Assembly: GCA_040757085.1 (NCBI GenBank)
Contig: JBFLXJ010000032.1
Location: 1-58,730 of the forward strand
Direction: 5' to 3'
Origin: Bacillota bacterium
GTDB taxonomy: Bacteria; Bacillota; Sulfobacillia; JACIYH01
Length of the DNA: 58,730 nucleotides
Shown: in pieces, positions 17,249 through 36,160 of the stretch
Layout: each line of letters opens with the position of its first letter
Position numbering within the stretch: the first letter of the stretch is position 1
Translations under genes and position numbers: made by a program
Notes under the pieces: generated by a model
What the model saw: the letters and a program-made list of their open reading frames with translations, nothing else
The model's database searches: none
Told to the model about the DNA's origin: nothing

Positions 17249-17390
17249 TACCAGGGCGTAGGGGAAGGGAAGGCATCTGGCCTCCGAGGTGGCCCGGTTT
17301 GCGGGCTGAGCCTTGAGAGGACAGTGCTGCCGGCATTCCGGGAGCGGTCCGGCGGGTCCTGACGCAACTTTAAGCCGGGGGTGTACGGGT

Positions 17391-18305
17391 TTGTCTATTG
17401 TCCAGTGGTTGTGCTACGTCTCGCTCCTGGTCCTGGTGGTCGGTCTGGCGGCAAGGACGCTCAGGTATGCCCGGGCGCCCATGCACCTGCGCTGGGAGCT
17501 GTACCCGGTTCCCCACGAAGTGGGGAAGCCTTACGGAGGCTCCTACTTCGAGGAACCGGACTGGTGGACGCATCCTCGCAAGACGTCCTTTGTGGGTGAG
17601 CTCCGGGTCATGCTTTCGGAGATATTTCTACATGCGGGGCTATGGCACCACAATCGTAAGATGTGGGTCGTCTCCTATCCGTTCCACCTGGGCATCTACC
17701 TTGTGGCCATCTTCCTGGTCTTACTCCTGGCGGGAGGGGCCGTCCAGGCGGCAGGGGGGCAGGTGACCGCCGACTCGGGCGGAGTGCTCACTGCCCTCTA
17801 CTATCTATCTCTCGCTGCGGGCCCGGCCGGCATGGTGATGGTCATTGTGGGCGGCCTGGGGGTGCTGGCCAGGCGGCTGGGCGACCCCACGTTGCGATCC
17901 TACAGCGCGCCTGCCGACTACTTTAACGTGAGCCTGATCCTGGCCCTGGCGCTGACCTGGTTTCTTACCTGGCTATTCGTGGACCGTTCCTTTGCCCTGG
18001 CCCGGGCGTTCGTCCGGGACCTGCTCATTTTTGCGCCGGTAGCACGTGCCCACCCGGCCGTCCTGGTGGAAATGTCCCTTCTGTCGGTGTTCCTGATATA
18101 CCTGCCTTTCACCCACATGACCCACTTCATCGGAAAATGGTTCACCTACCACCTGGTGCGCTGGGACGACAGGCCCAACCTCGGTTCCGGTTACGAAAAG
18201 AGCATTGCTGACGTCCTGAGCAGGCCGTTGGGATGGTCCGCGCCCCACATAAGCAACCCGCAAGAGAAAAAGACCTGGGCGGAAGTCACCGGCGAGGTGG
18301 AATGA
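17391..18305 (+). CDS. dsrM: DsrM-like membrane cytochrome b subunit
   Basis: 304 residues from TTG 17391, related to the gamma subunit of respiratory nitrate reductase; about six membrane segments. Histidines suited to heme b binding lie in YPFHLGIYLV and THMTHFIGKWFTYHLV. In sulfite/sulfate reducers DsrM oxidises menaquinol and passes electrons to DsrK. The gene is four bases from dsrK. A loop near residues 40-80 (GGSYFEEPDWW) is longer than in compact DsrM proteins. Hmc/Tmc- or heterodisulfide-reductase-type subunits are close alternatives. Confidence 0.85.
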   Translation: MSIVQWLCYVSLLVLVVGLAARTLRYARAPMHLRWELYPVPHEVGKPYGGSYFEEPDWWTHPRKTSFVGELRVMLSEIFLHAGLWHHNRKMWVVSYPFHLGIYLVAIFLVLLLAGGAVQAAGGQVTADSGGVLTALYYLSLAAGPAGMVMVIVGGLGVLARRLGDPTLRSYSAPADYFNVSLILALALTWFLTWLFVDRSFALARAFVRDLLIFAPVARAHPAVLVEMSLLSVFLIYLPFTHMTHFIGKWFTYHLVRWDDRPNLGSGYEKSIADVLSRPLGWSAPHISNPQEKKTWAEVTGEVE

Positions 18306-18308
18306 ACC

Positions 18309-19922
18309 ATGCCAAAACCCATCACCCTCCGCGATATCGGCAACACGGATGGCCAGCTTGTACGGCTTGATCCTGCAGAGTTCGTGCCCCTTCCCCATCC
18401 GTACGATAGGCCCGACGCTCAGCCACCCTTGCGGTCGCTGACCGAAAGCCAGAGGCAGAGGCTGGATGACTCCCTCGATGGCTTCACCGCCCTCCGCCTG
18501 CCGCGTCCCCAGAGCCGGCAGGAGGAGGAGAAACTGGTGCGCAGTTTTCTGGCAGGCGTCAGGAGGCTGCTTTCCCGGGACGACAACTGGACCTTCCTGG
18601 GCCCCCTCATGCTCAGGTTGGATTACTGCGCCAAATGCCAGACCTGTGCAGAGGCGTGTCCCATCTTCGTCGCCAGCGGGAGGAAGGAAATTTATCGTCC
18701 CACCTTCCGCTCCGAGCTGCTGAGAAGGATAATCAAGAAATACGTTATGCCGGGCGGGAGGATCTGGGGTGCCTTCCAGGGGGCAGACATCGATCTCAAC
18801 TGGCATACCGTGGCGCGCCTGGGTGAACTGGCATACAGGTGCACGCTTTGCCGCAGGTGTGCTCAGGTTTGTCCCATCGGCATCGGAAACGCCCTGCTCA
18901 CCAGGGAGATCCGCAAGGTGTTCAGCCAGGAGATGGGTTTGGCTCCCGTGGAACTGCACAAGCTGGGCACCGTGCAGCAACTGAAGACGGGGTCCAGCAC
19001 CGGCATGACCCCCGCCGCCCTCCTGGACAGCATTGAGCTGATGGAGGAGGAGGTGGAGGAGAAGACGGGCATGAAGTTCGATTGGCCCGTCGACCGGGAG
19101 GGCGCGGACCTCCTGCTCATTCACAATGCCGGGGAGTTCCTGTCCTGGCCCGAGAATCCGGAGGCCTTTGCCATCATCCTGGAGAAGGCGGGGATCAGCT
19201 ATACCCTGTCCAGCGAACTGATGGGCTATGACGCCGTCAACTACGGGGTATGGTACGACGATGTTCAGTTCGCCCGCATTGCCCGCAAGCATGCCGAGGT
19301 GGCCAGAAAGCTCAGGGTCAAGAAGATCGTGATCGGCGAGTGCGGCCACGCCCACAAGGCCCTCACGGTGGTGGCAGACCGCTTGCTGGCCGGGGAAATG
19401 AATATCCCCCGGGAGAGTTGCCTGACCCTGCTCGATCACATTGTGTCGAGCGGCAGGCTCAAGCTGGATCCCCGGCGCAACGATTTCCCGGTCACCCTGC
19501 ACGACCCCTGCAACATTGTCAGGCTGATGGGGATAGTGGAGCCCCAGCGGAGGATACTGCGCAAGATCGCTCCCCGCTTCAGGGAGATGAGCCCCAACGG
19601 CGTCCAGAACTACTGCTGCGGTGGGGGGAGCGGCTTTGCCATCATGGACGGCGTGAACTTCCCCGACTGGCGCAGCGGGGTTGCCGGGAGGATGAAGTTC
19701 AAGCAGATACTGGAGGCGTTCGCCGGAGAGTTGGATCCTTCGATCCCGAAGTACGTTTGCGCCCCCTGTTCCAACTGCAAGGGCCAGTTGCGGGGCCTGC
19801 TCGATTACTTCGACGCCACCCGCAAGTGCGGCATCTATTACGGTGGTCTGGCAGAGTTGATCGTCAACGCCATGACCGACTTCGAGAAGCCGTTCATCAG
19901 CTTCGACGCCGACCAGCTGTAA
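18309..19922 (+). CDS. dsrK: DsrK-like (HdrD-type) iron-sulfur subunit
   Basis: 537 residues, cytoplasmic. Two [4Fe-4S] sites: C107, C110, C113, C117 (YCAKCQTCAEACP) and C178, C181, C184, C188 (RCTLCRRCAQVCP). Two CCG-type cysteine domains follow (GECGHAHKAL, HDPCN, NYCCGGGSG, CAPCSNCKG), which form the catalytic noncubane cluster in HdrD/DsrK. It should reduce the DsrC disulfide or trisulfide with electrons from DsrM. The DsrMK-only form, without DsrJOP, is typical of Gram-positive sulfate and sulfite reducers. Confidence 0.9.
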   Translation: MPKPITLRDIGNTDGQLVRLDPAEFVPLPHPYDRPDAQPPLRSLTESQRQRLDDSLDGFTALRLPRPQSRQEEEKLVRSFLAGVRRLLSRDDNWTFLGPLMLRLDYCAKCQTCAEACPIFVASGRKEIYRPTFRSELLRRIIKKYVMPGGRIWGAFQGADIDLNWHTVARLGELAYRCTLCRRCAQVCPIGIGNALLTREIRKVFSQEMGLAPVELHKLGTVQQLKTGSSTGMTPAALLDSIELMEEEVEEKTGMKFDWPVDREGADLLLIHNAGEFLSWPENPEAFAIILEKAGISYTLSSELMGYDAVNYGVWYDDVQFARIARKHAEVARKLRVKKIVIGECGHAHKALTVVADRLLAGEMNIPRESCLTLLDHIVSSGRLKLDPRRNDFPVTLHDPCNIVRLMGIVEPQRRILRKIAPRFREMSPNGVQNYCCGGGSGFAIMDGVNFPDWRSGVAGRMKFKQILEAFAGELDPSIPKYVCAPCSNCKGQLRGLLDYFDATRKCGIYYGGLAELIVNAMTDFEKPFISFDADQL

Positions 19923-23204: not shown

Positions 23205-23960
23205 ATGGACATAGCATCGGATAGGTGCATCGGTTGCGGTCAGTGTGTCGATTATTGTCCGTCCGGAGCGATTTCGCTGGTGGAGGCAGTGGCTACAATT
23301 GATCCTGTTCTGTGTGTGGAATGCGGGACGTGTCGACGGGTGCAATGCTGCCCCGTTGATGCGATATTAGAGTCCTCCCTGGGCGGAACGCCCCGGGCAA
23401 TAAGAGCCTTCTTTAGCGACCCCGCCGCGACGCACGCCGAGACCGGCATCCCGGGCAGGGGCACGGAAGAAGTCAAGACCAACGACGTTACCGGGAGGGT
23501 TAGGCCTGGATGGGTAGGCATCGGCATCGAGGTGGGACGGCCGTGCCTGGGGACCATGCTCGCTGAGGTGGAGAAGATCACGACTGCCCTGGCGCCGCTC
23601 GGGATCAGGTACGAGCGCAACAACCCAATGACGTATCTGCTTGAGTCGCAGGAGACTGGACGCATCAAGGAAGAGTACCGCGGCGAACGGGTGACCTCCC
23701 TCATTATAGAGTTCACCGTCGAGGAAGGGCGCCTCGCCGAAGTGCTCGGCGTGTTGCGCGATGTGTCAGGCCGCCTGGATACCGTATTCGCATTGGACGT
23801 CATAGCGTGCTTCGACGAGCGCGGTGAGCTTCCGGTGTGGGACAGTTTGGTGGAGATGGGGTACCGTCCCCGACCCAATGCCAAGGTAAATCTGGGCCTG
23901 GGCCGCCCGGCAGCCTCGGCATTGGTTGAACTGGTTGCATCAGAGGTGAGTGGGCGATGA
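23205..23960 (+). CDS. Two-cluster ferredoxin fused to an unrecognised domain
   Basis: 251 residues from ATG 23205, with AAGGGGGTC upstream. Residues 1-55 bind two [4Fe-4S] clusters: C8, C11, C14, C18 (CIGCGQCVDYCP) and C37, C40, C43, C48/49 (CVECGTCRRVQCCP). Residues ~100-245 form an alpha/beta domain I do not recognise (WVGIGIEVGRPCLGTMLAEVEK; VTSLIIEFTVEEGRLAEVLG), somewhat like ACT-type ferredoxin-like sandwiches. It overlaps the next gene by four bases and leads a ten-gene operon with an AOR, so an electron-transfer or sensing role for that pathway is plausible. Function unknown. Confidence 0.85.
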   Translation: MDIASDRCIGCGQCVDYCPSGAISLVEAVATIDPVLCVECGTCRRVQCCPVDAILESSLGGTPRAIRAFFSDPAATHAETGIPGRGTEEVKTNDVTGRVRPGWVGIGIEVGRPCLGTMLAEVEKITTALAPLGIRYERNNPMTYLLESQETGRIKEEYRGERVTSLIIEFTVEEGRLAEVLGVLRDVSGRLDTVFALDVIACFDERGELPVWDSLVEMGYRPRPNAKVNLGLGRPAASALVELVASEVSGR

Positions 23961-24604
23961 CGCATTCCTTGCATCGGATCGGCAGTGAGGCCAGCTTGGA
24001 GCGTGACTACGTGGTGCTCATTACCCCGGCGGCGGGGATTAACCACGAAGGGTCGGCTGCGAAGCTGAAGGAGATTCTGGACTTTATCGCGCAACTGGGG
24101 CCGACGAACATCGGCGGGTACGAGACGGGGTCCATCTACGCGGGGTATGGAGTCGAGGACATTAAGCACGGGCTCGACCGGGCGGTGGTACCCAGGGTTC
24201 GTTGCTGCTTTTCTGACCTGGACAAGGTCAAGCGGTTGGTGGAATTCGTGCGTGCGCGCGACTACGGGCTCTCCGTAACTGTGAGCGGACTCGTGGCGAA
24301 TGTGAGGAGGATGTGCGCGGAGCTGGGTGTAAGGCCACACTCGGTGAACCTTTCGCTGGGGTTCCACGGCAGAACGGATCTCCTGCCAGAGTCCGAAGTG
24401 TTGGAGATCGTAACCATGTGCGGTCACGGGATGCTGGGTCCCCGCTTCGTAAGTTCAGTCATGGACCGGGTCAGTTCGGGCCAGCTTTCGCCCCGGGAGG
24501 GGGCCCGGGAATTGGCGAGGCCGTGCGTCTGCGGCATTTTCAATGTGGACAGGGCAGAACAGCTGCTGACCAGGGTCTGCCAATGCTCCCAGCACCGCTG
24601 CTGA
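23957..24604 (+). CDS. Unrecognised cysteine-rich protein paired with the ferredoxin fusion
   Basis: 215 residues, start overlapping the previous stop (ATGA). No family recognised. Nine cysteines: 83, 84, 120, 155, 190, 192, 208, 210 and 215, with the last five crowded in PCVCGIFN and VCQCSQHRC, which suggests a metal or Fe-S site. Conserved-looking motifs are PAAGINHEGSAAKLKEIL, GYETGSIYAGYG, LSLGFHGRTDLLP and CGHGMLGPRFV. No signal peptide or membrane segment, so probably cytoplasmic. Its tight coupling suggests the two proteins form a complex. Confidence 0.8.
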   Translation: MTHSLHRIGSEASLERDYVVLITPAAGINHEGSAAKLKEILDFIAQLGPTNIGGYETGSIYAGYGVEDIKHGLDRAVVPRVRCCFSDLDKVKRLVEFVRARDYGLSVTVSGLVANVRRMCAELGVRPHSVNLSLGFHGRTDLLPESEVLEIVTMCGHGMLGPRFVSSVMDRVSSGQLSPREGARELARPCVCGIFNVDRAEQLLTRVCQCSQHRC

Positions 24605-24630: not shown

Positions 24631-25527
24631 ATGAGCAATAGGGAATGCCGCGAGATGCGTGTTGGCTTCATCGGATTGGGGCAGATGGGGGGGCCCATGT
24701 GTCTGAACCTCTTGCGGGCCAGCCAGACAATCGTCGCGTACGATATCGTGACTGAGCGGCTGAACCCCATTGTTGGCGCTGGAGCGGAAGCCGGCAGAAG
24801 CCCGGCGGACGTCGCCTCCCGTACCGGGGTGACTGTCCTGTCCCTCCCGACTCCGGCTGCGGTGGTGGAGGTCGTGCGGGGGCCGGACGGTATCCTGGCC
24901 GGGGCCCGGGCCGGACACCTGGTGATAGACACCAGCAGCGTTTCCCCGTCCACCTCGCGCGAGATGGCGCAGGCCTGCCACGAGCGGGGGGTAAGGTACC
25001 TGGATGCCCCCGTGAGCGGCGGGGTGAGGGCCGCCGAGCAGGGAACCCTCACTATCATGGCGGGCGGGGAGAGGGAGGTGTTCGAGGCGGCCAAGCCCTG
25101 GCTCGAGATTTTGGGCAAGAAGATCTTTTACGTTGGTCGTTCCGGATCGGGCAGCATGATGAAGCTCATCAACCAGCTCCTGTTTCTCAGCGGCGTGGCC
25201 GCGGTTTGCGAGGCCGTCAATCTTGCCCGCAAGGCCGGCGTGGACGACGGTACCCTGTGGGAAGTGATTCCTGAGTGCTCGGGTGCCAGCTATGCCTTTG
25301 CCACCCGCCTCAAGAACTTCCTCATGCCTGGCAGTTTTGAGCCGGGCTTCAGCGTGGCTCTGGCCGCCAAGGATGCTGATTTGATCATGGCTGCGGCACG
25401 GGAGCTAGAGGCGCCGCTGCCACTTGGAGCCGAGGTGCACAGGTTGCTGCAGGCCGCCCAGCGAGCGGGGCTGGGAGGCAAGGACGTTTCCGCCCTTTCC
25501 CTCCTTCTGGTCGAACAGAAACAGTAG
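24631..25527 (+). CDS. Beta-hydroxyacid dehydrogenase (3-hydroxyisobutyrate / tartronate semialdehyde reductase family)
   Basis: 298 residues from ATG 24631. Rossmann motif VGFIGLGQMGG near residue 12, substrate loop DAPVSGGVRAAEQGTLTIMAGG, and catalytic Lys178 in GSMMKLINQ. In family enzymes the residue four after the lysine is usually Asn; here it is Gln182, which may alter activity or substrate choice. It interconverts a beta-hydroxyacid and the semialdehyde with NAD(P). In this operon, an aldehyde made by it could be passed to the AOR; that is an inference. Confidence 0.88.
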   Translation: MSNRECREMRVGFIGLGQMGGPMCLNLLRASQTIVAYDIVTERLNPIVGAGAEAGRSPADVASRTGVTVLSLPTPAAVVEVVRGPDGILAGARAGHLVIDTSSVSPSTSREMAQACHERGVRYLDAPVSGGVRAAEQGTLTIMAGGEREVFEAAKPWLEILGKKIFYVGRSGSGSMMKLINQLLFLSGVAAVCEAVNLARKAGVDDGTLWEVIPECSGASYAFATRLKNFLMPGSFEPGFSVALAAKDADLIMAAARELEAPLPLGAEVHRLLQAAQRAGLGGKDVSALSLLLVEQKQ

Positions 25528-25541
25528 AGAGGTGGGCACCG

Positions 25542-26012
25542 ATGGTGGTGAGGATTGAAGTCGACGAGCGCGCGTGCACCGGCTGCCGATTGTGTGAAGC
25601 CGTGTGTTCCTTTGCCCACGAGGGCGGTGTCGGACCGGCGCTGGCGCGGGTATGGGTGCTCAACACCGACCTGTGGGGTCCGCGGCGGGTGGTGGTGTGC
25701 CGGCAGTGCGCGGTTCCGGCGTGCGAAAAGGTCTGTCCGGTAGGGGCCATCAAGGTGGTGGCAGAAGAGTCCGTCCGCTACGTCGGGGTGGACCACGACC
25801 TCTGCGTGGGCTGTGGGGCCTGCGAGGATGCCTGCCCTTACGGCGCCATTGCCATGCATCCGGACAAGCCCTGGCCCATTAAGTGCGATCTCTGCGGCGG
25901 AGACCCCGCCTGCGTCAAGTACTGCGCGGCCGGGGCCCTCTCTTCGGCGACGGGTAGCGCTCCCGTGCGTGCGCGGGAGCGGAGGCTCCGGGTGGTCAAA
26001 CGAGGCAGTTGA
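25542..26012 (+). CDS. Polyferredoxin subunit (HycB/AOR-associated, four [4Fe-4S] sites)
   Basis: 156 residues. Four cysteine groups are visible: CTGCRLCEAVC, CRQCAVPACEKVC, CVGCGACEDAC and CDLCGGDPACVKYC, the pattern of NrfC/HycB-type electron-transfer subunits. It lies 14 bases after the dehydrogenase and just before MoaD and AOR, so it most likely carries electrons from the AOR. No signal or Tat motif; cytoplasmic. Confidence 0.9.
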   Translation: MVVRIEVDERACTGCRLCEAVCSFAHEGGVGPALARVWVLNTDLWGPRRVVVCRQCAVPACEKVCPVGAIKVVAEESVRYVGVDHDLCVGCGACEDACPYGAIAMHPDKPWPIKCDLCGGDPACVKYCAAGALSSATGSAPVRARERRLRVVKRGS

Positions 26013-26039: not shown

Positions 26040-26330
26040 GTGAAAGGTTTCGGGGTGAGGTGCAGATTCTTGTCAGAGTTCCGCGATGCAGCCGGCCGGT
26101 CCGAGATGGAGGTCGAGGTCGGGGCCGGCAGCTCAGTAGCCGACCTCATAGCGCGTCTGTGTTCTGAGCTGCCAGGCCTGCAGGTGCTGCTCGAGAGGGT
26201 GGGGGGCAGCAGCTCGCCCTCTTTCGCGGTGGCCGTGGACGGCGTGGAGGTTCCCGCCTCGCGTCGGCCCGAGACTGTGCTCCGGGAAGGCAGCGATGTG
26301 CTCTTTTTCTTCCCCGGCGTCGGGGGCTAA
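26040..26330 (+). CDS. moaD: MoaD/ThiS-family sulfur carrier
   Basis: 96 residues from GTG 26040 (GGAGTG upstream). Ubiquitin-like beta-grasp with the obligatory C-terminal diglycine (FFPGVGG), which is adenylated and thiocarboxylated to donate the dithiolene sulfur of pyranopterin. Copies next to aldehyde ferredoxin oxidoreductase genes are common and probably dedicated to the tungsten/molybdenum cofactor of that enzyme. Confidence 0.9.
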   Translation: MKGFGVRCRFLSEFRDAAGRSEMEVEVGAGSSVADLIARLCSELPGLQVLLERVGGSSSPSFAVAVDGVEVPASRRPETVLREGSDVLFFFPGVGG

Positions 26331-26367: not shown

Positions 26368-28236
26368 ATGCCCCGTTACGGCGGATATTGCGGGAAGATT
26401 CTCCGGGTGGATCTCAGCAACGGCACTTTCCGCGTCCAAGAACTCGACGAGCGTTGGCCCAAAGAGCTGATCGGGGGGAACGGCCTGGGAGCCAGCCTGC
26501 TTCTTGCGGAGACCCCGCCGCGGATCGATCCCCTTTCGCCGGAGAGCAGGGTATACCTGGTCACGGGGCCGCTCAACGGCACACCTCTCCCCATCGGTAC
26601 GAAGTTCGGTTTCGTCTTCAAGTCTCCCCTGACCGACGGCTTCATGGATAGCTATGCAGGGGGCTTCCTCGGCGCCGAGCTGAAGTTCTGCGGCTTCGAT
26701 GCCGTGGTGCTGGAAGGCAGGGCTCCGCACCCCGTGTACCTTTGGATCGACGACGGCAAGCCTAGTTTGCTGGATGCCCGCCACCTGTGGGGCAAGGACA
26801 CCTACGAGACCTGCCGCCAGATCTGGGAAGATCACGGTGACCCCATGATCCGGGTGGCGGCCATAGGGCCTGCGGGTGAGAACCTGGTGCGCTACGCCTG
26901 TGTGATGGCGGAAGGGTTCCACGCTGCCGGCCGGGGTGGCCTGGGTGCGGTTTGGGGCTCCAAGAACCTGAAGGCCGTCGCCTTGCGGGGGGTCTCGGGT
27001 GCAGTCAGGGTGGCCGATCCGGCGGCGGTGAAGCGGTTGGCAGACGAGATTTACCAGGCCATCAGGAAGGACCCCAGCCTGTGGGATGGTATGCCGCGGT
27101 ACGGTACCGTATCGGCCGTCAACAGCAACCAGGCCAGCGGTATACTCGGCACCCGCAACTGGCAGACGGAGGTCTTCGAGGAAGCCGACAAGATCAACGG
27201 CGAGGCATTCCGGAGCCAGGTGTGGGAGCGGAACCTGGCCTGCTTTGCCTGCCCCATCCGCTGCCTGCATTTCGGCCGGGTCAAGCAGGGCCGGTACCAG
27301 GGGCTAGAGGCAGTAGGGCCTCAGTACGAGACGGTGTACGCTCTGGGTTCATTGTGCGGTAACGGCGATCCGGCTGCGATCCTGGCGGCTGGCGACCTGT
27401 GCAACCGGCTGGGTCTGGACACTATTTCTGCCGGAGTCTGCATTGCCTTCGCCATGGAATGCTACGAGCGGGGCCTGCTGACCGAGTCCGACACCCAGGG
27501 GCTGGAACTCCGCTTCGGTAACCGCAGCGCGATCATCGAACTCGTGCAACGCATTGCCTACCGCGACGGGATCGGCGGGCTCCTGGCCGAGGGGGTCAAG
27601 AGGGCAGCCGAAGCGGTTGGGCGTGGGGCAGACCGGTTTGCTATCCATGTGAAGGGCCTGGAGCTTGCCGGGCACAGCGTGAGGGGGTACAAGGGTCTGA
27701 CTCTAGGCTACGCGACCAGCAACCGGGGGGGCAGCCACCAGGACATGCGGCACCTGCCCGAGCGGGCCGGCCAGTTCGACCGTCGTTCGACCACGGGGAA
27801 GGCGCAGCTGAATATAGACATCACCGCCACCACGGCCCTGCGAGACTCGTACATCTATTGCGCGATGTTTGAAGGTCTCATCGGGCGGGTGGGCGTGCAG
27901 CAGCTCCACGCGGACCTCATCAACGCGGTCACCGGGATGGCGCTGTCCCGCCAGGATCTGTTCACGGTTGCGGAGCGCATCTGGAATCTGGAACGGGCGT
28001 TCAACGTACGGGAAGGAAAGACTCGGGCCGATGACACTCTGCCCCGGCGCTTCCTGGAGGAGCCGATCCCGGATGGTTCCTCCCAAGGGATGGTTTCGTC
28101 TGAGGAAGAGCTTGCCGGGATGCTGGAGGAGTACTACCAATTGAGGGGGTGGGATCCGACCACCGGCGCACCGACACGAGACAAGCTGGAGGCACTAGGT
28201 CTTTCGTGGGTGGCTGATGCCCTCGGTGTTCGCTAA
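26368..28236 (+). CDS. aor: Aldehyde ferredoxin oxidoreductase family (tungsten/molybdenum pterin enzyme)
   Basis: 622 residues from ATG 26368, with GAGGAG upstream. N-terminal AOR domain MPRYGGYCGKILRVDLSNG and ELIGGNGLGASLL; pterin-binding AAIGPAGENLVRYACVMAEG and GRGGLGAVWGSKNLKA; Fe-S cysteines in CFACPIRCLHF plus the later LCNRLGLDT. It oxidises an aldehyde to a carboxylate with ferredoxin, or the reverse. The family also contains benzoyl-CoA reductase-type BamB enzymes, so the substrate is open. Neighbouring MoaD and polyferredoxin support an active complex. A broken relative lies at 35003. Confidence 0.93.
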   Translation: MPRYGGYCGKILRVDLSNGTFRVQELDERWPKELIGGNGLGASLLLAETPPRIDPLSPESRVYLVTGPLNGTPLPIGTKFGFVFKSPLTDGFMDSYAGGFLGAELKFCGFDAVVLEGRAPHPVYLWIDDGKPSLLDARHLWGKDTYETCRQIWEDHGDPMIRVAAIGPAGENLVRYACVMAEGFHAAGRGGLGAVWGSKNLKAVALRGVSGAVRVADPAAVKRLADEIYQAIRKDPSLWDGMPRYGTVSAVNSNQASGILGTRNWQTEVFEEADKINGEAFRSQVWERNLACFACPIRCLHFGRVKQGRYQGLEAVGPQYETVYALGSLCGNGDPAAILAAGDLCNRLGLDTISAGVCIAFAMECYERGLLTESDTQGLELRFGNRSAIIELVQRIAYRDGIGGLLAEGVKRAAEAVGRGADRFAIHVKGLELAGHSVRGYKGLTLGYATSNRGGSHQDMRHLPERAGQFDRRSTTGKAQLNIDITATTALRDSYIYCAMFEGLIGRVGVQQLHADLINAVTGMALSRQDLFTVAERIWNLERAFNVREGKTRADDTLPRRFLEEPIPDGSSQGMVSSEEELAGMLEEYYQLRGWDPTTGAPTRDKLEALGLSWVADALGVR

Positions 28237-28257: not shown

Positions 28258-28764
28258 GTGAGCGGTCTCCGCGGGAGAAGCAGGTCGGTGCTGGGACGCT
28301 ATAGGGCAGCAGAGCATCTGGGAGAGGTGGCCTTTCTCATTGCGCTCTGTGTTCTGCAAGGCGCGTTCATTAGAGAGTCCCTGACCTTCGAGCCGGTGTC
28401 GCGTCGCTTTCCGCTGTTGTTTGCTACCGCAGGTTGTGTGCTGTCTGCTGTACTGCTGGGTGTAAAGCTAGCACGTCCCACCGGCGCGACTGAGCCTAGC
28501 GACCGGGCTGCGGAGGGCGTGGCTTGGTACGTGGTGTCGTTGTGTATGGCCGGTTGCCTTTTGGTTGCGTATGTGTTTGGGTTTCTCCCCGCTATCGGGT
28601 TATTTGCGTTCCTTCTGCCTGGGGTTTTGGGCGAGCGCAAGGTTAGGATGCGGTTGGCCTATGCTGTTGTGGTTACGGCACTGTTCTGGGCATTCGGGTA
28701 TGCAATGAGTATTCCGTTGCCCGAAGGCCACCTTGCGCGCTTGATACTTGGCGGGAGTCGGTGA
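28258..28764 (+). CDS. tctB: Tripartite tricarboxylate transporter small membrane subunit TctB
   Basis: 168 residues with four hydrophobic segments, the size and layout of TctB. It accompanies the large TctA channel to form the membrane part of a secondary importer for organic acids. GTG start at 28258. From here to about 31260 the DNA is visibly richer in T than the flanking genes, hinting at separate ancestry for the transporter block. Confidence 0.88.
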   Translation: MSGLRGRSRSVLGRYRAAEHLGEVAFLIALCVLQGAFIRESLTFEPVSRRFPLLFATAGCVLSAVLLGVKLARPTGATEPSDRAAEGVAWYVVSLCMAGCLLVAYVFGFLPAIGLFAFLLPGVLGERKVRMRLAYAVVVTALFWAFGYAMSIPLPEGHLARLILGGSR

Positions 28765-28778
28765 GGAGGAGTGCACGC

Positions 28779-30287
28779 ATGTGGCTGGAGGGGTTTATCT
28801 GTGCGCTATCTGCTTATAACTTGCTCTGTCTTCTAGCCGGAACGCTGGTTGGATTAATTGTCGGGGCCCTTCCGGGATTGGGCCCGTTGTTCGGTGTCTC
28901 CTTGGCGCTTCCGTTCACCGTGGGCATGCCGCCGGAATCTGCCATCATCCTGTTGTCTGCCATCCACGCTGCTACGGCTTACGGAGATTCGATCGCATCC
29001 ATTCTGGTCAGGGTCCCCGGCAGCGCAGCCACGGTGGCTGCTTGTTGGGACGGCTACCCGATGACCCAGCAAGGCCGTGGGGCGGTGGCACTTGCGATGT
29101 CAGCCCTGGGTTCCTTGTTTGGGGGGTTGGCGGGTTGGATTGCTTTGGTGGTGATTTCCGGTCCGCTGGTGCGTTTGGCCCTTAAGATGCACTCGGCGGA
29201 GTATTTTATGGTGGCCCTTGTGGCCCTGTCTCTGTTGGCTGTAGCAGGTTCTGGAAACATGGCCAAAGGGTTGCTGATGGGGTTCTTGGGGCTTTTGTTG
29301 TCCACGGTCGGCCAGGATCTTTTTACCGGGGGGTTCAGGTTCACCCTCGGAAGCCCCTATTTGGAAAGCGGCATACCGATGGTTCCTGCTGTGTTGGGGT
29401 TGTTCGCAATCAGCCAAGCGCTCGTGCTGGCGGAAGAGGGCGGCACTATAGCGAAGGTGGAGAGAGTCTCGGGTGGTGCCCTTGCTGCCGTGCGCGAGAC
29501 GGTGAGACATTGGGCTACTGTCATCCGAGGGGCTCTGGTCGGCGTGGTCATGGGGATCTTGCCAGCTTTGGGTCTTTCGAGCGCTAACGTCGTGGCCTAC
29601 CTTATCGAGAAGAGGGTTTCGCGGGATCCGGAGAGCTTTGGCCGCGGGAATCCGGCTGGGGTATTGGCACCGGAGACGGCTAAGAGCGCGTGTGTTATCG
29701 GTGACTTGATCCCCACAGTTACTCTTGGTATCCCGGGGTCTCCAACCACAGCCATCTTTATGGCGGCCCTTATCTTGCATGGGTTGCGGCCGGGGCCCGA
29801 CTTCTTCCAGGGCAAGTTTCCCTATGTTGTTTTTGCAGGCATCCTGATGGCGCAGTTTGCCTTTTTCATCATCGGCCTGCTCTGTGCGCGGTACCTCGCA
29901 CGCATTGTGCTATTGCCTAACGCGTATATGGTCCCTACGATCATCGCCTTAAGCCTGATTGGTGCTTACGCGGCTAATTATAGTGTGTACGATATGTGGG
30001 TCGCACTTGCCTTCGGCGTTCTCGGGTACGTTATGCAGAAGTACGGGTTTCCGTCAGCGTGTTTGGTTCTGGGGTTTGTGTTGGGCAACATCGCTGAAAC
30101 CAATTTCGTGCGCGCGCTAATGGTTAATGGGTCGTACGTGGTCTTTGTGACGCGGCCCATATCCCTCGCCCTGTTGCTAATAGCGGTGGTCTCCTTCCTT
30201 TCGCCGTGGGTCTCCAGCCTGCGGCAGCGGAGTGACCGCAGCAAAAGCGGCGAGGGTGTCGGGAAAGCATCGCAAAATCATGCCTAG
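28779..30287 (+). CDS. tctA: Tripartite tricarboxylate transporter large membrane subunit TctA
   Basis: 502 residues from ATG 28779 (GAGGAGG upstream; a GTG at 28761 is less likely). About twelve membrane segments. Hallmarks: GLIVGALPGLGPLFGVSLALPFT near residue 20-45, the AYGDSIASILVRVPGSAAT loop, and the second repeat with GDLIPTVTLGIPGSPTTAI. Works with the lipoprotein receptor TctC to take up a carboxylate with a cation. Confidence 0.94.
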   Translation: MWLEGFICALSAYNLLCLLAGTLVGLIVGALPGLGPLFGVSLALPFTVGMPPESAIILLSAIHAATAYGDSIASILVRVPGSAATVAACWDGYPMTQQGRGAVALAMSALGSLFGGLAGWIALVVISGPLVRLALKMHSAEYFMVALVALSLLAVAGSGNMAKGLLMGFLGLLLSTVGQDLFTGGFRFTLGSPYLESGIPMVPAVLGLFAISQALVLAEEGGTIAKVERVSGGALAAVRETVRHWATVIRGALVGVVMGILPALGLSSANVVAYLIEKRVSRDPESFGRGNPAGVLAPETAKSACVIGDLIPTVTLGIPGSPTTAIFMAALILHGLRPGPDFFQGKFPYVVFAGILMAQFAFFIIGLLCARYLARIVLLPNAYMVPTIIALSLIGAYAANYSVYDMWVALAFGVLGYVMQKYGFPSACLVLGFVLGNIAETNFVRALMVNGSYVVFVTRPISLALLLIAVVSFLSPWVSSLRQRSDRSKSGEGVGKASQNHA

Positions 30288-30299
30288 GAGGTGCGTACG

Positions 30300-31265
30300 A
30301 TGCGAAAGACGTTGGTGGTCGGTCTCGTGGTAATCGTGGTGTGTGGCGCATTGTTGGTTGGGTGCACGAAGCCACAGGAGCGGTTCCCCAGCAAGAACAT
30401 CACTTTCCTGATCGGATTTGGTCCCGGCGGTGCGAATGACATGATCACTCGTGCCTTAATTCCAGGCATGAAACAGGCTCTGGGAGTGGACGTTGTGCCT
30501 GTGAACCTGCCAGGTGCGGGTGGTGCTGTGGCAGCGAAGAAGTTGGCAAGTGAGCCGGCGGATGGGTACAATATTTTGTTGCTGTCTCAGTCGATAATCC
30601 TGACGCAGTATACTGGGCAGGCCGGTATTAAGATGAGTGATTACCAACCCATCATTGGGGTTGCCGAAGATACTTCCGCGATAACTGTGCCCGCTGATGC
30701 GCCTTACAACAACATCAATGAGTTCGTCACCTATGCGAAGGCTAATCCCGGCAAAGTCCGTATTGGAAATGCGGGAACGGGGGCCCTTTGGCATATCGCC
30801 GCCGCCCTGTTCGCCGACAAGGCAGGCATTGACGTGAAGCACATTCCGTACGAGAGTGGTGCCCAGGCTGCACTGGCCACGGCAGGGAAAGAGATAGAGG
30901 CTTGTGCGGTGAGCCCATCCGAAGTCAAGGGGTTGGTCGACGCGGGCAAGCTAAAGATCCTCGCACTCATGAGCGAGTCGAGGTACGACATCGTACCAAA
31001 CGTGCCCACGTTGAAGGAGGCGGGTATCGACCTCACTTACCGCGTGTGGCGAGGGGTGTTCTGCAAGGCCGGAACGCCGGCAGAGAGAGTTAAGAAGCTT
31101 CACGATGCCATCAAGTCTGCCATGGCAGATTCAAGCTTTGTCTCTTCTATGAAAACAGCGGGCATCCCCATTGTGTACCGCTCCACGGATGACTTCGTGG
31201 CGCAGGTCAGGAAAGACGACGCACTGCTAAAGGAAACGCTGCAGAAGCTGGGCTTGCTGAAATAG
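30300..31265 (+). CDS. tctC: Tripartite tricarboxylate transporter receptor TctC (lipoprotein)
   Basis: 321 residues from ATG 30300, with AGGAGGTG upstream. Lipobox LLVGC puts the lipidated Cys at 22, as expected for a Gram-positive binding protein. The mature part begins FPSKNITFLIGFGPGGANDM and includes VNLPGAGGAVAAKKLA and GNAGTGALWHIAAALFA, the ligand-binding loops of the Bug/TctC family. The ligand is not predictable from sequence; the operon suggests a hydroxy- or oxo-acid. Confidence 0.94.
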   Translation: MRKTLVVGLVVIVVCGALLVGCTKPQERFPSKNITFLIGFGPGGANDMITRALIPGMKQALGVDVVPVNLPGAGGAVAAKKLASEPADGYNILLLSQSIILTQYTGQAGIKMSDYQPIIGVAEDTSAITVPADAPYNNINEFVTYAKANPGKVRIGNAGTGALWHIAAALFADKAGIDVKHIPYESGAQAALATAGKEIEACAVSPSEVKGLVDAGKLKILALMSESRYDIVPNVPTLKEAGIDLTYRVWRGVFCKAGTPAERVKKLHDAIKSAMADSSFVSSMKTAGIPIVYRSTDDFVAQVRKDDALLKETLQKLGLLK

Positions 31266-31283
31266 ATCAAGGGGGTGCAGTGC

Positions 31284-32141
31284 ATGTCTCTGACCCAAGA
31301 GATGAAGCAGTACTTGAAATCCCTGGGCGCGGATCTTGTTGGAGTTGCTCCTGTCGAGCGGTTTGAGGGTGCACCGAGGCGACCTGAGGAGATACTCCCG
31401 GGCGCGCGGTCGGTAGTGGTGATTGGCTTGCGCATACCGTTGGCCAGCGTGGACGCTTGGAAGAAGCTGATGAAGTCCTACCAGGTGTACGGCCACGGTT
31501 GGCTCAATTTCCACTTGTCGTTCATGGAATACCACCTGGCCCAGTTCCTCGAGGACAGGGGTTATCATGCCTTGCCCCTTTCCTCCCTGGACCCCTATTA
31601 CGATATGAAAACCTTCATGACCGAGGGGCTTTCGAATCGTCATGCGGCGGTGGCGGCCGGGCTCGGGGAGTTTGGGTGGAACAACCTGTTCCTGTCCCCG
31701 CGTTTTGGTCCGCGGGTCCGGCTGACCACCACGATTACCAGCGCTCCCCTCGAAGCTGATCCTATGTATAGCGGCCCACCGTTGTGCTTGAAACAAAGGT
31801 GCCTTAAGTGTGTTGAGGAGTGCCCTATGCAGGTGTTCGATCGGCAGGACGGGATACAGGTCACCATCGCCGGGAGAGCGTTCGAGATGTCGCGTTTGGA
31901 TGGCGAGCGCAAGTACCTTTGCCGCTGGTGTGAGCACGGCTTAACCCGACGCGGTGGCGCACTTACGGAAATCCCCATTCCGGAGGAAAAAACCCCCGAA
32001 GCTTATCTGGACGCGTGGGACAAGCGTGATCGGTACCAAAAGCGCCGCCAGGGAATGTTCGGAGGCATTTACTTCTGCGGTCGATGTGTCCACGTCTGCC
32101 CGGTGGGCCGCGGTCACCAGGCGCAAGTCGGTTGTCAATAG
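31284..32141 (+). CDS. QueG-like iron-sulfur protein (epoxyqueuosine reductase / reductive dehalogenase-related)
   Basis: 285 residues from ATG 31284. The N-terminal half (LGADLVGVAPVERF; ARSVVVIGLRIP; VAAGLGEFGWNNLFLSPRFGPRVRL) matches the cobalamin-binding core of QueG and reductive dehalogenases. The C-terminal half has clusters in CLKQRCLKCVEECPM, CRWC and CGRCVHVCPVG; the first has an extra residue spacing against the standard ferredoxin motif. It ends the AOR-TTT operon. True QueG works on tRNA and is usually longer with HEAT repeats, so a redox role in this pathway is more likely. Confidence 0.82.
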   Translation: MSLTQEMKQYLKSLGADLVGVAPVERFEGAPRRPEEILPGARSVVVIGLRIPLASVDAWKKLMKSYQVYGHGWLNFHLSFMEYHLAQFLEDRGYHALPLSSLDPYYDMKTFMTEGLSNRHAAVAAGLGEFGWNNLFLSPRFGPRVRLTTTITSAPLEADPMYSGPPLCLKQRCLKCVEECPMQVFDRQDGIQVTIAGRAFEMSRLDGERKYLCRWCEHGLTRRGGALTEIPIPEEKTPEAYLDAWDKRDRYQKRRQGMFGGIYFCGRCVHVCPVGRGHQAQVGCQ

Positions 32142-32394: not shown

Positions 32395-32426
32395 GTGCCA
32401 AACCAAACAACAAGGAACCAGGAGGC
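32376..32426 (+). promoter_or_regulatory. Inverted repeat that masks the transposase ribosome site
   Basis: GCCTCCTGGT (32376-32385) and its exact complement ACCAGGAGGC (32417-32426) flank the annotated GTG start; the right arm contains AGGAGG, serving GTG 32437. Pairing would hide this ribosome site in read-through transcripts, a common IS safeguard. Confidence 0.5.
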
Positions 32427-33691
32427 GAAGAAAGCGGTGGATGCAAGGCCAATCAGCTTGGCGGAGGTGTCGGAGGCGGCGGTGATAGTAGGGGTGGACG
32501 TGGCGAAGTACTCGCACTGGGCCAGGGTGATAGATCCGCGGGGCGGTGAACTGGTGAAGCCCGTGCGGTTCGAGAATAGCAGAGTGGGCTTCTCTCGTCT
32601 AGACCCGGTGGTCGCTGAGGCTTTGCACGGGCTGGGTCTGGACAAGGTGGTAGTCGGGCTAGAGCCCTCCGGGCACTACTGGAAGCCGCTCGCCCACCAC
32701 TTCCACTCCCAGGGTGTGCGGGTGGTGCTCGTCAACCCTTATCACGTGAAGCAGAGCAAGGAACTGGACGACAACAGCCACATGAAGAGCGACCGCAAGG
32801 ATGCCCTGGTGGTGGCCAGTTTGGTGCAGCAGGGCCGGTTCCTGCGCTCGTACTTCCCCGAAGGGGTGTACGCCGATCTGAGGGTGCTGGTAGGCCGGCG
32901 GTCTCACCTCAAGCGGTGGCTCAATTCGGCGGCGAACAGGCTTTGGACGAGTACTTCCCGGAGTACGACAGGGTGTTCAAGGACTTGCTGGGGAAGGCCT
33001 TCATGTGGGTGCTGCGGCACTGTCCCTTTCCTCAGGATGTGCTGCAGTGCGATCCCGAGGGCCTGGCCACATGCCTCAAGGTGGCGGCGGGGAACCGGGT
33101 GGGGATGAAGCGGGTGAGGAGGTTGATGGAGGCTGCGAAGGTGGGCATTGAGGGTGCGAGGAAGAAGCTCTCGTCCTGCCTGGACGAGGTGGAGTTTTAC
33201 CGGCAGCAGGTGGAGGGTGTAGAGGCCCGGATGGTGGGACTGCTCGACAGATTACCCGAGGCGAAGCGGCCCATGAGCATACGCGGGGTTGGTTCTGTGG
33301 TGGCGGCTACGGTGCTGGGCGAGGCGGGGGACTTCCGCAGGTTCGAGAACTGGAAGCAGTTGAGGAAGCTGTCCGGGTACAACCTGGTTGAGCAGAGCTC
33401 GGGCCAGAATAAGGGCCAGAGCATGATTTCTAAGCGTGGTCGTCCGGCGCTGCGGCACGTTCTGTACCTGGCGGCCGTGGTGGCCATAGCCAAGAACCGT
33501 GATTTTCAGGCCCTCTATGCATCTCTGACCATGCGCCAGCGCAATCCCCTCAAGGGCAAGCAGGCGCTGCTTGTGGTGGCCACCAGGATCCTGCGGGGAT
33601 CATGTTCGCGCTGGTGAAGGCCGGGCAGAGGTACTGTCCGGGCAAGATGATGAGTCGGTGCCAACAGGAGGTCGTGCAGGCGGCCGCCTGA
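32395..33691 (+). pseudogene. IS110-family transposase, two frameshifts
   Basis: A DEDD/serine transposase broken in three pieces. Piece one (32395 or 32437 to about 32945) has VGVDVAKYSHWARV, VGLEPSGHYWKPL and HMKSDRKDALVVA, the RuvC-like acidic residues. Piece two (about 32940-33597) has YFPEYDRVFKDLLGK and the C-terminal domain IRGVGSVVAATVLGEAGDFRRF with the catalytic Ser. Piece three (33601-33691) ends FALVKAGQRYCPGKMMSRCQQ. The first break removes a few codons near residue 183; the second is a small shift near 33598. Both probably abolish activity. Confidence 0.9.
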
Positions 33692-34302: not shown

Positions 34303-35010
34303 TTGGATTTGGAGTGGTTGAAGGCACGGCTGGACAAGGACGACTCGCAGGCCCCGTTGCGGATGAAAATCTACGATGCCCTCCGGTTAGGGGTTATCGA
34401 GGGCCTGTTGGCGCCTGGAGACGAGCTGACCGAGAGTCAAATAGCGGCCGCCGTGCAGGTGAGCAGGACTCCCATTAGGGAAGCGCTGCAGCGCCTGGAA
34501 ACCGAGGGCTGGGTCAAGCGCGTCCAGGGCCGGGGGATGGTCGTCACTGACTTCTCTGAGAAAGACGTGCGGGACCTGTACCTCATGCGTAGCGTGCTGG
34601 AGGGGCTGGCCGTGACGCTAGCCCTTCCAAACCTTACCGATGACGCCTTAAACCGGCTGAAGTGGATCGTTGACGAGATGGAGCTGCACACCAGCCGCGA
34701 CAACCGGGAGGCGGTGGCTGCCAAGAACAAAGAATTCCACTGGCGGCTGGTTGAACTCAGCGGCAGCCGACACATCATCGCGGTGCTGAGGTCGGTGTAC
34801 GAGCAGATCGACCGCGTGCGGGAAAGCTCTCTTTGGGCACCTGGCAGGATGCAGAAGGCTTTCGAAGAACACCTCGCAATTTACCAGGCACTTGCGAAGA
34901 GGGATACTGAGCAGGCGGCCGAACTGGTTCGCCGGCACGTTGTGACCGCTGGCGAGGTGCTGGTCGCGCGGATGCGAACGCGCGGGATCAAGCCTGTGGC
35001 AGATGCCTGA
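34303..35010 (+). CDS. GntR-family (FadR/FCD) transcriptional regulator
   Basis: 235 residues from TTG 34303, with GGAGGGG seven bases upstream. Winged helix at residues ~16-80 (LRLGVIEGLLAPGDELTESQIAA, VSRTPIREALQRLETEGWVKR) and an FCD ligand domain after residue 90 with candidate metal-binding His in HWRLVELSGSRH, EEHLAIYQA and RRHV. Such regulators sense small organic acids. It lies between the AOR-TTT operon and a broken AOR gene, so it probably controlled one or both. Its stop overlaps the pseudogene start by 8 bases. Confidence 0.92.
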   Translation: MDLEWLKARLDKDDSQAPLRMKIYDALRLGVIEGLLAPGDELTESQIAAAVQVSRTPIREALQRLETEGWVKRVQGRGMVVTDFSEKDVRDLYLMRSVLEGLAVTLALPNLTDDALNRLKWIVDEMELHTSRDNREAVAAKNKEFHWRLVELSGSRHIIAVLRSVYEQIDRVRESSLWAPGRMQKAFEEHLAIYQALAKRDTEQAAELVRRHVVTAGEVLVARMRTRGIKPVADA

Positions 35011-36160
35011 ACCCGAGGGGCAGGGCCTGGGCTGGAGGCGTCTCCTGGGGCGGATACTTGTGTGGCGCGACCCAGGAGCAGTGGTGACGGGTCGGGCGGA
35101 TGCTCCGGTATATTTGCTGGTGGTGGACGGAGCTGTCCAGTTTCGGGACGCTTCACACCTCTGGGGTCTCACCGCCTCTGCGACAGAGCAGGCCTTCCGC
35201 CAGGAACTTGGTGATCAGCGTGTGAGGGTAGCCAGCATTGGTCCGGCGGGAGAAAACGGCGTGCGATATGCATGTGTGATGCATGAAGGCCGGAACGCCA
35301 ATGGCAGGTGTGGCTTGGGAGCCGTCATGGCTTCCAAGCTCTTAAAGGCAGTGGCTGTGCGGGGCACCGCAAGAGTCGACATGGCTGGCAGGGATGGCGT
35401 GTTCGAGATAGCCAGATGGTTTCGCGACCATTACCGGGACAACCCCCTGACCCGAACCCTGCATGATCTGGGCACCGATGGGGCGTTAGGTGGCTTGAAT
35501 GCCACCGGAGTGCTACCGACCCGTGATTTTTCGGCGGGTAGCTTCGTGGGTTGGGAGGCCCTAACTGGGGAGACGTACGAGAAGCAGTTCGTCGTGGGGC
35601 GGTGCGGATGCTATGCCTGCCCGGTGAGGTGTAAGCGGACGGTGCGGCTGGGTGGTGCCGGGGTGGGAGGGCCTGAGTACGAGACCGCTTTCGGATCCAA
35701 TCTGGGAAGCAGCAACCTGGGCTCCATCGTCGAGATCAACCGACTCTGTAATGGCCTGGGTCTGGATACCATTGCTACAGGAGTGACCTTGGCCCTGGCT
35801 ACCGAATGCTTCGAGCAGGGTTGATCACAGCGCGCGATACGGGCGGGTTCGAGCTCCGGTTTGGCCGCGTGCCGGCTCGGAAGTTGATGCCGCTCATCGC
35901 CCGCCGGGAGGGGTTTGGGGCTGCTGTCGCCGAGGGGGCGGGCGGTTGGCGGAGAAAACCGGAGGGGCGGCACCGTCGCTGGTCGTAGAGGTAAAAGGGC
36001 TGGAGGCGGGCATGCACGATCCGCGGGGGAAGGTGAGCGTGCGGCTCGGTTATGCGCTGGCCGCTCATGGGGCCGATCACATGGTGGCGGCGCACGACGT
36101 CGTTTTCCTCAAGCAGGGTGCATACCCGCTTGAGCGGATTCTGGCAGACAGAGTCGGCGC
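35003..36160 (+). pseudogene. Broken aldehyde ferredoxin oxidoreductase
   Basis: About 125 N-terminal residues are missing: similarity to the intact AOR starts near 35088 (GRADAPVYLLVVDGAVQFRD). The frame then runs through VASIGPAGENGVRYACVMHEG and CGCYACPVRCKRT to a stop at 35824. A one-base shift continues the protein as LITARDTGGFELRFG, and after about 35945 the frame changes again (VVEVKGLEAGMHDPRGKVSVRLGYALAAHG). Sequence decays beyond about 36160. It is related to, but diverged from, the AOR at 26368. Confidence 0.88.

Follow-up and report, generated by a model that had tools for sequence, protein, structure and literature searches.

Two overlapping genes of a Bacillota bacterium, which we name FdX and CysB in the order in which they are read, encode what is well supported as a specific two-subunit complex. 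We propose, with a probability of roughly 0.45, that this complex is a ferredoxin-linked Fe-S enzyme, so far uncharacterised, that takes part in anaerobic organic-acid catabolism by acting reductively on imported carboxylates. Rather than assisting the aldehyde ferredoxin oxidoreductase (AOR) encoded in the same operon, the pair is thus probably a catabolic enzyme that has been overlooked. CysB and the second FdX domain belong to no curated Pfam or NCBIfam family, and literature searches returned no publication describing the pair. Should it prove to be an enzyme, anaerobic organic-acid breakdown includes a common step that has gone unnoticed.

The locus and its two proteins

The pair lies within the window, by which we mean the whole 58,730-nucleotide stretch of DNA that was analysed. 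A preliminary description of this DNA had reported two overlapping genes at 23205-24604, and both reading frames are indeed found there, sharing 4 bp at an ATGA. FdX is the first gene of its operon, because its upstream neighbour is on the opposite strand. The genes that follow on the same strand, in the order given here, have the identities originally assigned to them.

23205..23960, + strand: FdX gene (251 aa), an N-terminal 2[4Fe-4S] ferredoxin fused to an unnamed domain
23205..23384, + strand: FdX residues 1-60, 2[4Fe-4S] ferredoxin domain (C8, C11, C14, C18 / C37, C40, C43, C49); Pfam Fer4 E 2e-10, PDB fold and sequence matches
23454..23486, + strand: FdX residues 84-94, GRGTEEVKTND loop; R85, T87, E89, K91 and N93 invariant in 120 sequences
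23502..23807, + strand: FdX residues 100-201, ACT/PII-like fold in the AlphaFold model; VIA Z 6.6-6.9 to DUF3240, SerB2 ACT and GlnK2, middling values for a common fold
23957..24604, + strand: CysB gene (215 aa), proposed catalytic subunit, without family match
24002..24301, + strand: CysB residues 16-115, ferredoxin-like alpha/beta (PII-like) fold; Z at most 5.8 with about 75-90 residues aligned, a common fold
24419..24427, + strand: CysB C155-G156-H157, first part of the conserved Cys/His site; 100% conserved in 125 sequences
24524..24544, + strand: CysB C190-x-C192-G-x-x-N196, second part of the conserved Cys site; 98-99% conserved in 125 sequences
24631..25527, + strand: dehydrogenase of the 3-hydroxyisobutyrate / 2-hydroxymethylglutarate family (HIBADH/tartronate-semialdehyde-reductase-type); Pfam/NCBIfam, best PDB match 3cky
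25542..26012, + strand: polyferredoxin with several [4Fe-4S], PadI/AegA/WorS-like; Pfam, NCBIfam
26040..26330, + strand: MoaD/SAMP1-like protein, WorX-like; Pfam, NCBIfam, the WorX name by analogy with PMC13328260
26296..28236, + strand: AOR; PF02730 and PF01314, with the ATG at 26368 as the likely start
28258..28764, + strand: TctB-like small permease; by size, position and composition only
28761..30287, + strand: TctA large permease; PF01970, E 4e-132 in its own genome, also among the blast partners
30291..31265, + strand: TctC solute-binding protein; homologues at many pair loci
31275..32141, + strand: QueG/reductive-dehalogenase-like (RdhA-like) Fe-S protein; NCBIfam

The last of these genes is not conserved with the pair, being present in one of 107 pair operons. 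No RNA element was found in Rfam 5′ of FdX, and promoter and terminator patterns at the locus are no commoner than in shuffled sequence. Elsewhere in the window, transposase pieces (32395-33617) separate the operon from a truncated second AOR-like reading frame (35003-35824) that lies downstream of a GntR/FCD regulator. At 17313-19922 there is a gene for a NarI-like membrane protein and, after it, one for an Fe-S protein bearing CCG motifs, an arrangement that recalls DsrMK/HdrDE. The genome carries a single copy of CysB.

The two [4Fe-4S] sites previously noticed in FdX are of the CxxCxxCx3C type, and all eight ligand cysteines are at least 99% conserved among 120 homologues. Likeness to bacterial 2[4Fe-4S] ferredoxins is confined to residues 1-60, and PDB fold and sequence matches to about residues 1-70. 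Unlike those ferredoxins, FdX adds an unnamed conserved domain of ~190 residues and almost always has CysB as a partner. The consensus of this C-terminal domain has no Pfam or NCBIfam match near any cut-off, in agreement with the earlier view of it as unrecognised; its extent, however, had been put at ~145 residues, whereas the domain spans about residues 60-250 and contains the ACT/PII-like fold at ~100-200. Besides the loop, whose family-wide form is GRGTEExKTND and which probably serves as a ligand or partner site, the 120 sequences conserve R112, P141, S165, E169, K227 and N229. The AlphaFold model of the single FdX subunit has a pLDDT of 88.7.

CysB contains nine cysteines and the motifs CGHGMLGP and PCVCGIFN, as first described, but only C155, C190 and C192 are conserved (at 99% or more) across 125 sequences, the remaining six being variable. 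Also conserved in this set are H3, R7, D17, N29, H128, H157, N196 and R199. We infer that C155, C190 and C192 hold a site-differentiated Fe-S cluster, although these cysteines could instead bind zinc or a [2Fe-2S] cluster. To judge from conservation, the invariant polar residues fixed in both subunits look like an active site.

Apart from the ferredoxin domain of FdX, neither protein falls into a characterised family in Pfam or NCBIfam, as had been supposed. Neither 56 CysB members nor their consensus sequences gave a match near any Pfam or NCBIfam cut-off; the single CysB sequence had no sequence match in the PDB, and the CysB profile gave chance-level matches only. The model of the single CysB subunit (pLDDT 93) had no Foldseek match in the PDB below 0.001 and no full-length fold match listed, which is no proof of a new fold, and none of the PDB fold matches listed clearly corresponds to its cysteine-bearing C-terminal part. 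Three candidate relationships were rejected. Weak matches of single CysB-family members to methanogenesis marker 8 / DUF2099 (0.01-0.05) disappear with consensus queries. Kinship with proline racemase, suggested by an MCGHG resemblance, has no Pfam match, and the second cysteine motif of CysB follows only 35 residues past the first. An internal duplication relating CysB to FdX has an hhalign probability of 6%.

Pairing and distribution

The proposal of a two-protein complex is borne out by constant adjacency together with partner-specific co-evolution. FdX is directly upstream of CysB at 117 of 128 distinct CysB loci, with a median gap of 3 bp and with overlapping genes at 36 loci. Pairwise distances in the two families are correlated (Mantel r 0.82), and when partners are swapped within the 18 loci that hold more than one pair the mean r falls to 0.68, none of 2000 swaps reaching the observed value. 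Beyond what a common species history would produce, this swap test argues strongly that the two form a specific two-subunit unit. Paralogous pairs within one operon usually come from distant clades of the tree, and hence are not simple tandem duplicates. An apparent natural fusion of FdX and CysB (L010:7786-9258) was read as a frameshift in a metagenome assembly because its middle is out of frame, and no open reading frame containing both domains was found at loci L134-L153.

A GTDB-wide scan with the CysB of the window recovered 56 loci from Bacillota, Synergistota, Desulfobacterota, Chloroflexota, Verrucomicrobia, Aminicenantes and many Lokiarchaeota. Profile searches of sampled genomes detected CysB in 21 of 299 Bacillota (~7%; one of these, G153, with a 32-residue stretch only), 23 of 195 from the Lokiarchaeota-containing phylum (~12%), 15 of 149 Synergistota (~10%), 21 of 198 Desulfobacterota (~11%) and 7 of 201 Chloroflexota (~3%). 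Carriers of the pair include sulfate reducers, rumen Lachnospiraceae and Asgard archaea; one that can be cultured is Desulfosarcina widdelii (L026/L153). There are up to nine CysB copies per genome. Two genomes (G021 and G726) reach this number, and the copies in G021 are spread over different transporter operons.

In two Desulfobacterota loci (L135:3878-4726 and L136:8974-9867), FdX starts with an apparent twin-arginine leader and a lipobox-like cysteine. The CysB proteins at these loci start with MSHTSQRRG and retain H3, R7 and the three cysteines. From these leader features, the two loci probably encode an exported form of the complex.

Genes that accompany the pair

The suggested connection with organic acids is well supported through uptake systems, and TctA and other organic-acid transporters are general partners of the pair. 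Among the 107 pair operons, TctA is present in 40, MFS transporters in 11 and TRAP DctM in 6. TctA also occurs in 17 of 20 Bacillota genomes with the pair (co-occurrence P 3e-7, uncorrected for phylogeny). Also found repeatedly beside the pair are Zn-dependent alcohol dehydrogenase, GntR regulators, DUF1932 and HIBADH-type dehydrogenases, Ldh_2, PdxA, M20 and M29 hydrolases, FAA hydrolase, LarA, RraA and DHDPS.

Linkage with AOR, which the preliminary description had expected to be conserved, recurs in other genomes, but in one related group and in only 7 of 107 operons. Operons with AOR, HIBADH and polyferredoxin mostly form one group of the tree near the window (the window, L005, L009, L011, L014, L068 and L069). 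With AOR as a tree label, 6 changes are counted, where shuffled labels give 8.7 on average and 6 at the least. The linkage is therefore real but clade-specific, with mild tree structure only. AOR is found somewhere in all 20 of the 20 Bacillota pair genomes (co-occurrence P 2e-5, uncorrected for phylogeny).

Other redox partners take its place elsewhere. POR subunits occur in 5 of the 107 operons, and a second redox module, consisting of a polyferredoxin, a CODH/HCP-like protein and a PadH-like NADH flavoprotein, recurs beside the pair in Bacillota and Desulfobacterota. The CODH/HCP-like protein of this module is shortened; it has an N-terminal CxxCxxGPCR as in CODH and a partial PF03063, and is located as follows.

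L087:6198-7712, L101:5411-6973, L092:10247-11515(-), L095:7558-8823(-), L144:3984-5462, L142, L148: shortened CODH/HCP-like protein

Proposed function and alternatives

If the pair is a reductase, the two [4Fe-4S] clusters of FdX would pass electrons to CysB, where C155, C190 and C192 would bind a third cluster with one iron open to substrate, and H3, R7, H128 and H157 would assist the catalytic site. The ACT/PII-like domain of FdX, with its GRGTEExKTND loop, probably contacts a ligand or the partner. A carboxylate imported by TTT, TRAP or MFS transporters would most likely be reduced with low-potential electrons, by C=C or ring reduction or by reductive dehydroxylation; both direction and substrate are conjectural, and no single reaction can be deduced because the neighbouring enzymes are too varied. 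The electron source would be AOR in the window operon, and POR or the PadH-like NADH flavoprotein with polyferredoxin in others. The HIBADH-like enzyme of the window could handle the semialdehyde level while AOR supplies electrons. The derivation of same-operon paralogues from distant clades, together with as many as nine copies per genome, would fit a set of substrate-specialised enzymes. Against this reading, no relative of the pair has a known function, and a recognisable redox partner is missing from many operons (L001, L032, L105, L119 and L132 among them).

A redox-neutral Fe-S enzyme is an unlikely but serious alternative. CysB would then be a hydro-lyase or isomerase in which a [4Fe-4S] cluster with an open site serves as Lewis acid towards a hydroxy acid, and the FdX clusters would be structural or would repair the active cluster. 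In its favour, CysB has exactly three invariant cysteines, and enzymes of hydroxy and oxo acids are found nearby (Ldh_2, DHDPS, RraA, LarA, the DUF1932 and HIBADH dehydrogenases, PdxA and FAA hydrolase). Nevertheless, a hydro-lyase requires no complete and always conserved 2[4Fe-4S] ferredoxin, and redox modules recur beside the pair. A reductase is likelier than a lyase because three unrelated electron-supplying modules (AOR, POR, and PadH-like with CODH-like) have been exchanged around a constant pair. Considerably less probable is a redox- or ligand-sensing regulatory complex controlling the neighbouring transporter or pathway, much as PII-like SbtB controls SbtA. CysB residues 16-115 and FdX residues 100-200 do resemble SbtB, GlnK and ACT domains in fold (Z about 5-7), and the commonest neighbours are transporters. 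However, these are middling scores for a common fold, the pair has no sequence match to those proteins and carries additional Fe-S and cysteine elements, and the pattern of conserved Cys, His, Arg, Lys and Asn resembles that of an enzyme. Moreover, some operons have no recognisable transporter, and an apparently exported form of FdX is easier to reconcile with a redox enzyme than with a cytosolic regulator of a transporter.

The preliminary description had implied that the pair is an electron-transfer adaptor of AOR. In favour of this, the genes for the pair, polyferredoxin, AOR and MoaD adjoin one another in L068 and L069 and lie together in the operon of the window, and AOR recurs in one related group, but its scarcity across the 107 operons indicates that the pair is not an AOR accessory, and the window operon already has a polyferredoxin of its own. 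The tree-label counts given above likewise amount to mild clade structure at most, leaving this explanation improbable. Tungsten aldehyde oxidoreductase (WOR) systems comprise WorL (AOR), the polyferredoxin WorS and MoaD-like WorX proteins (PMC13328260); the window operon holds WorL, a WorS-like polyferredoxin and a WorX-like MoaD, whereas FdX-CysB is no standard part of WOR and mostly occurs without AOR. About as improbable is a sulfur-transfer or thiol-forming complex working like L-aspartate semialdehyde sulfurtransferase (MA1821/MA1822), in which a ferredoxin-NIL subunit and a Cys-dependent subunit act on semialdehydes (PMC12068725). The two systems share a plan in which a ferredoxin fused to a regulatory fold accompanies a Cys protein, and the next gene in the window encodes a semialdehyde-forming HIBADH. 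In contrast to the sulfurtransferase, however, the pair has no COG1900/HcyBio or NIL match in Pfam scans, its three invariant cysteines form a CGH...CxCG pattern against two in COG1900a, and its neighbours are catabolic and include no sulfur genes.

More tentative than the reductive enzyme itself is the broader idea that FdX-CysB founds a new class of ferredoxin-dependent enzyme. Such a class would combine a new catalytic Fe-S site with a new CysB fold. In anaerobic bacteria and Asgard archaea it would catalyse an unassigned step that is widely reused, such as the reduction or dehydroxylation of various carboxylates and heterocycle acids. Partner specificity and the small number of invariant residues make the pair amenable to expression and mutagenesis.

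A lead as to how the pair may work comes from the window dehydrogenase, which is closest in the PDB to 3cky, the 2-hydroxymethylglutarate dehydrogenase of nicotinate fermentation. 6-Hydroxynicotinate reductase (Hnr) of Eubacterium barkeri is a one-chain anaerobic ring reductase with two [4Fe-4S] clusters, one [2Fe-2S] cluster and a covalent flavin, and its pathway also uses 2-hydroxymethylglutarate dehydrogenase. Hnr may thus serve as a model by analogy, as a lead only; in contrast to its single chain, FdX and CysB are separate genes with no true fusion found. Searches of plasmids with FdX and CysB found no Hnr gene. In Chloroflexota, two operons (L151 and L152) combine the pair with D-hydantoinase/dihydropyrimidinase, FdrA and a protein like 3clq (which we take to be a DUF1116 protein), which hints at N-heterocycle or carbamoyl catabolism. 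In one Bacillota operon (L100:6855-12960), the pair adjoins a split xanthine-dehydrogenase-type Mo hydroxylase, with 2Fe-2S, two MoCo and FAD subunits, together with DUF6282 and TRAP genes.
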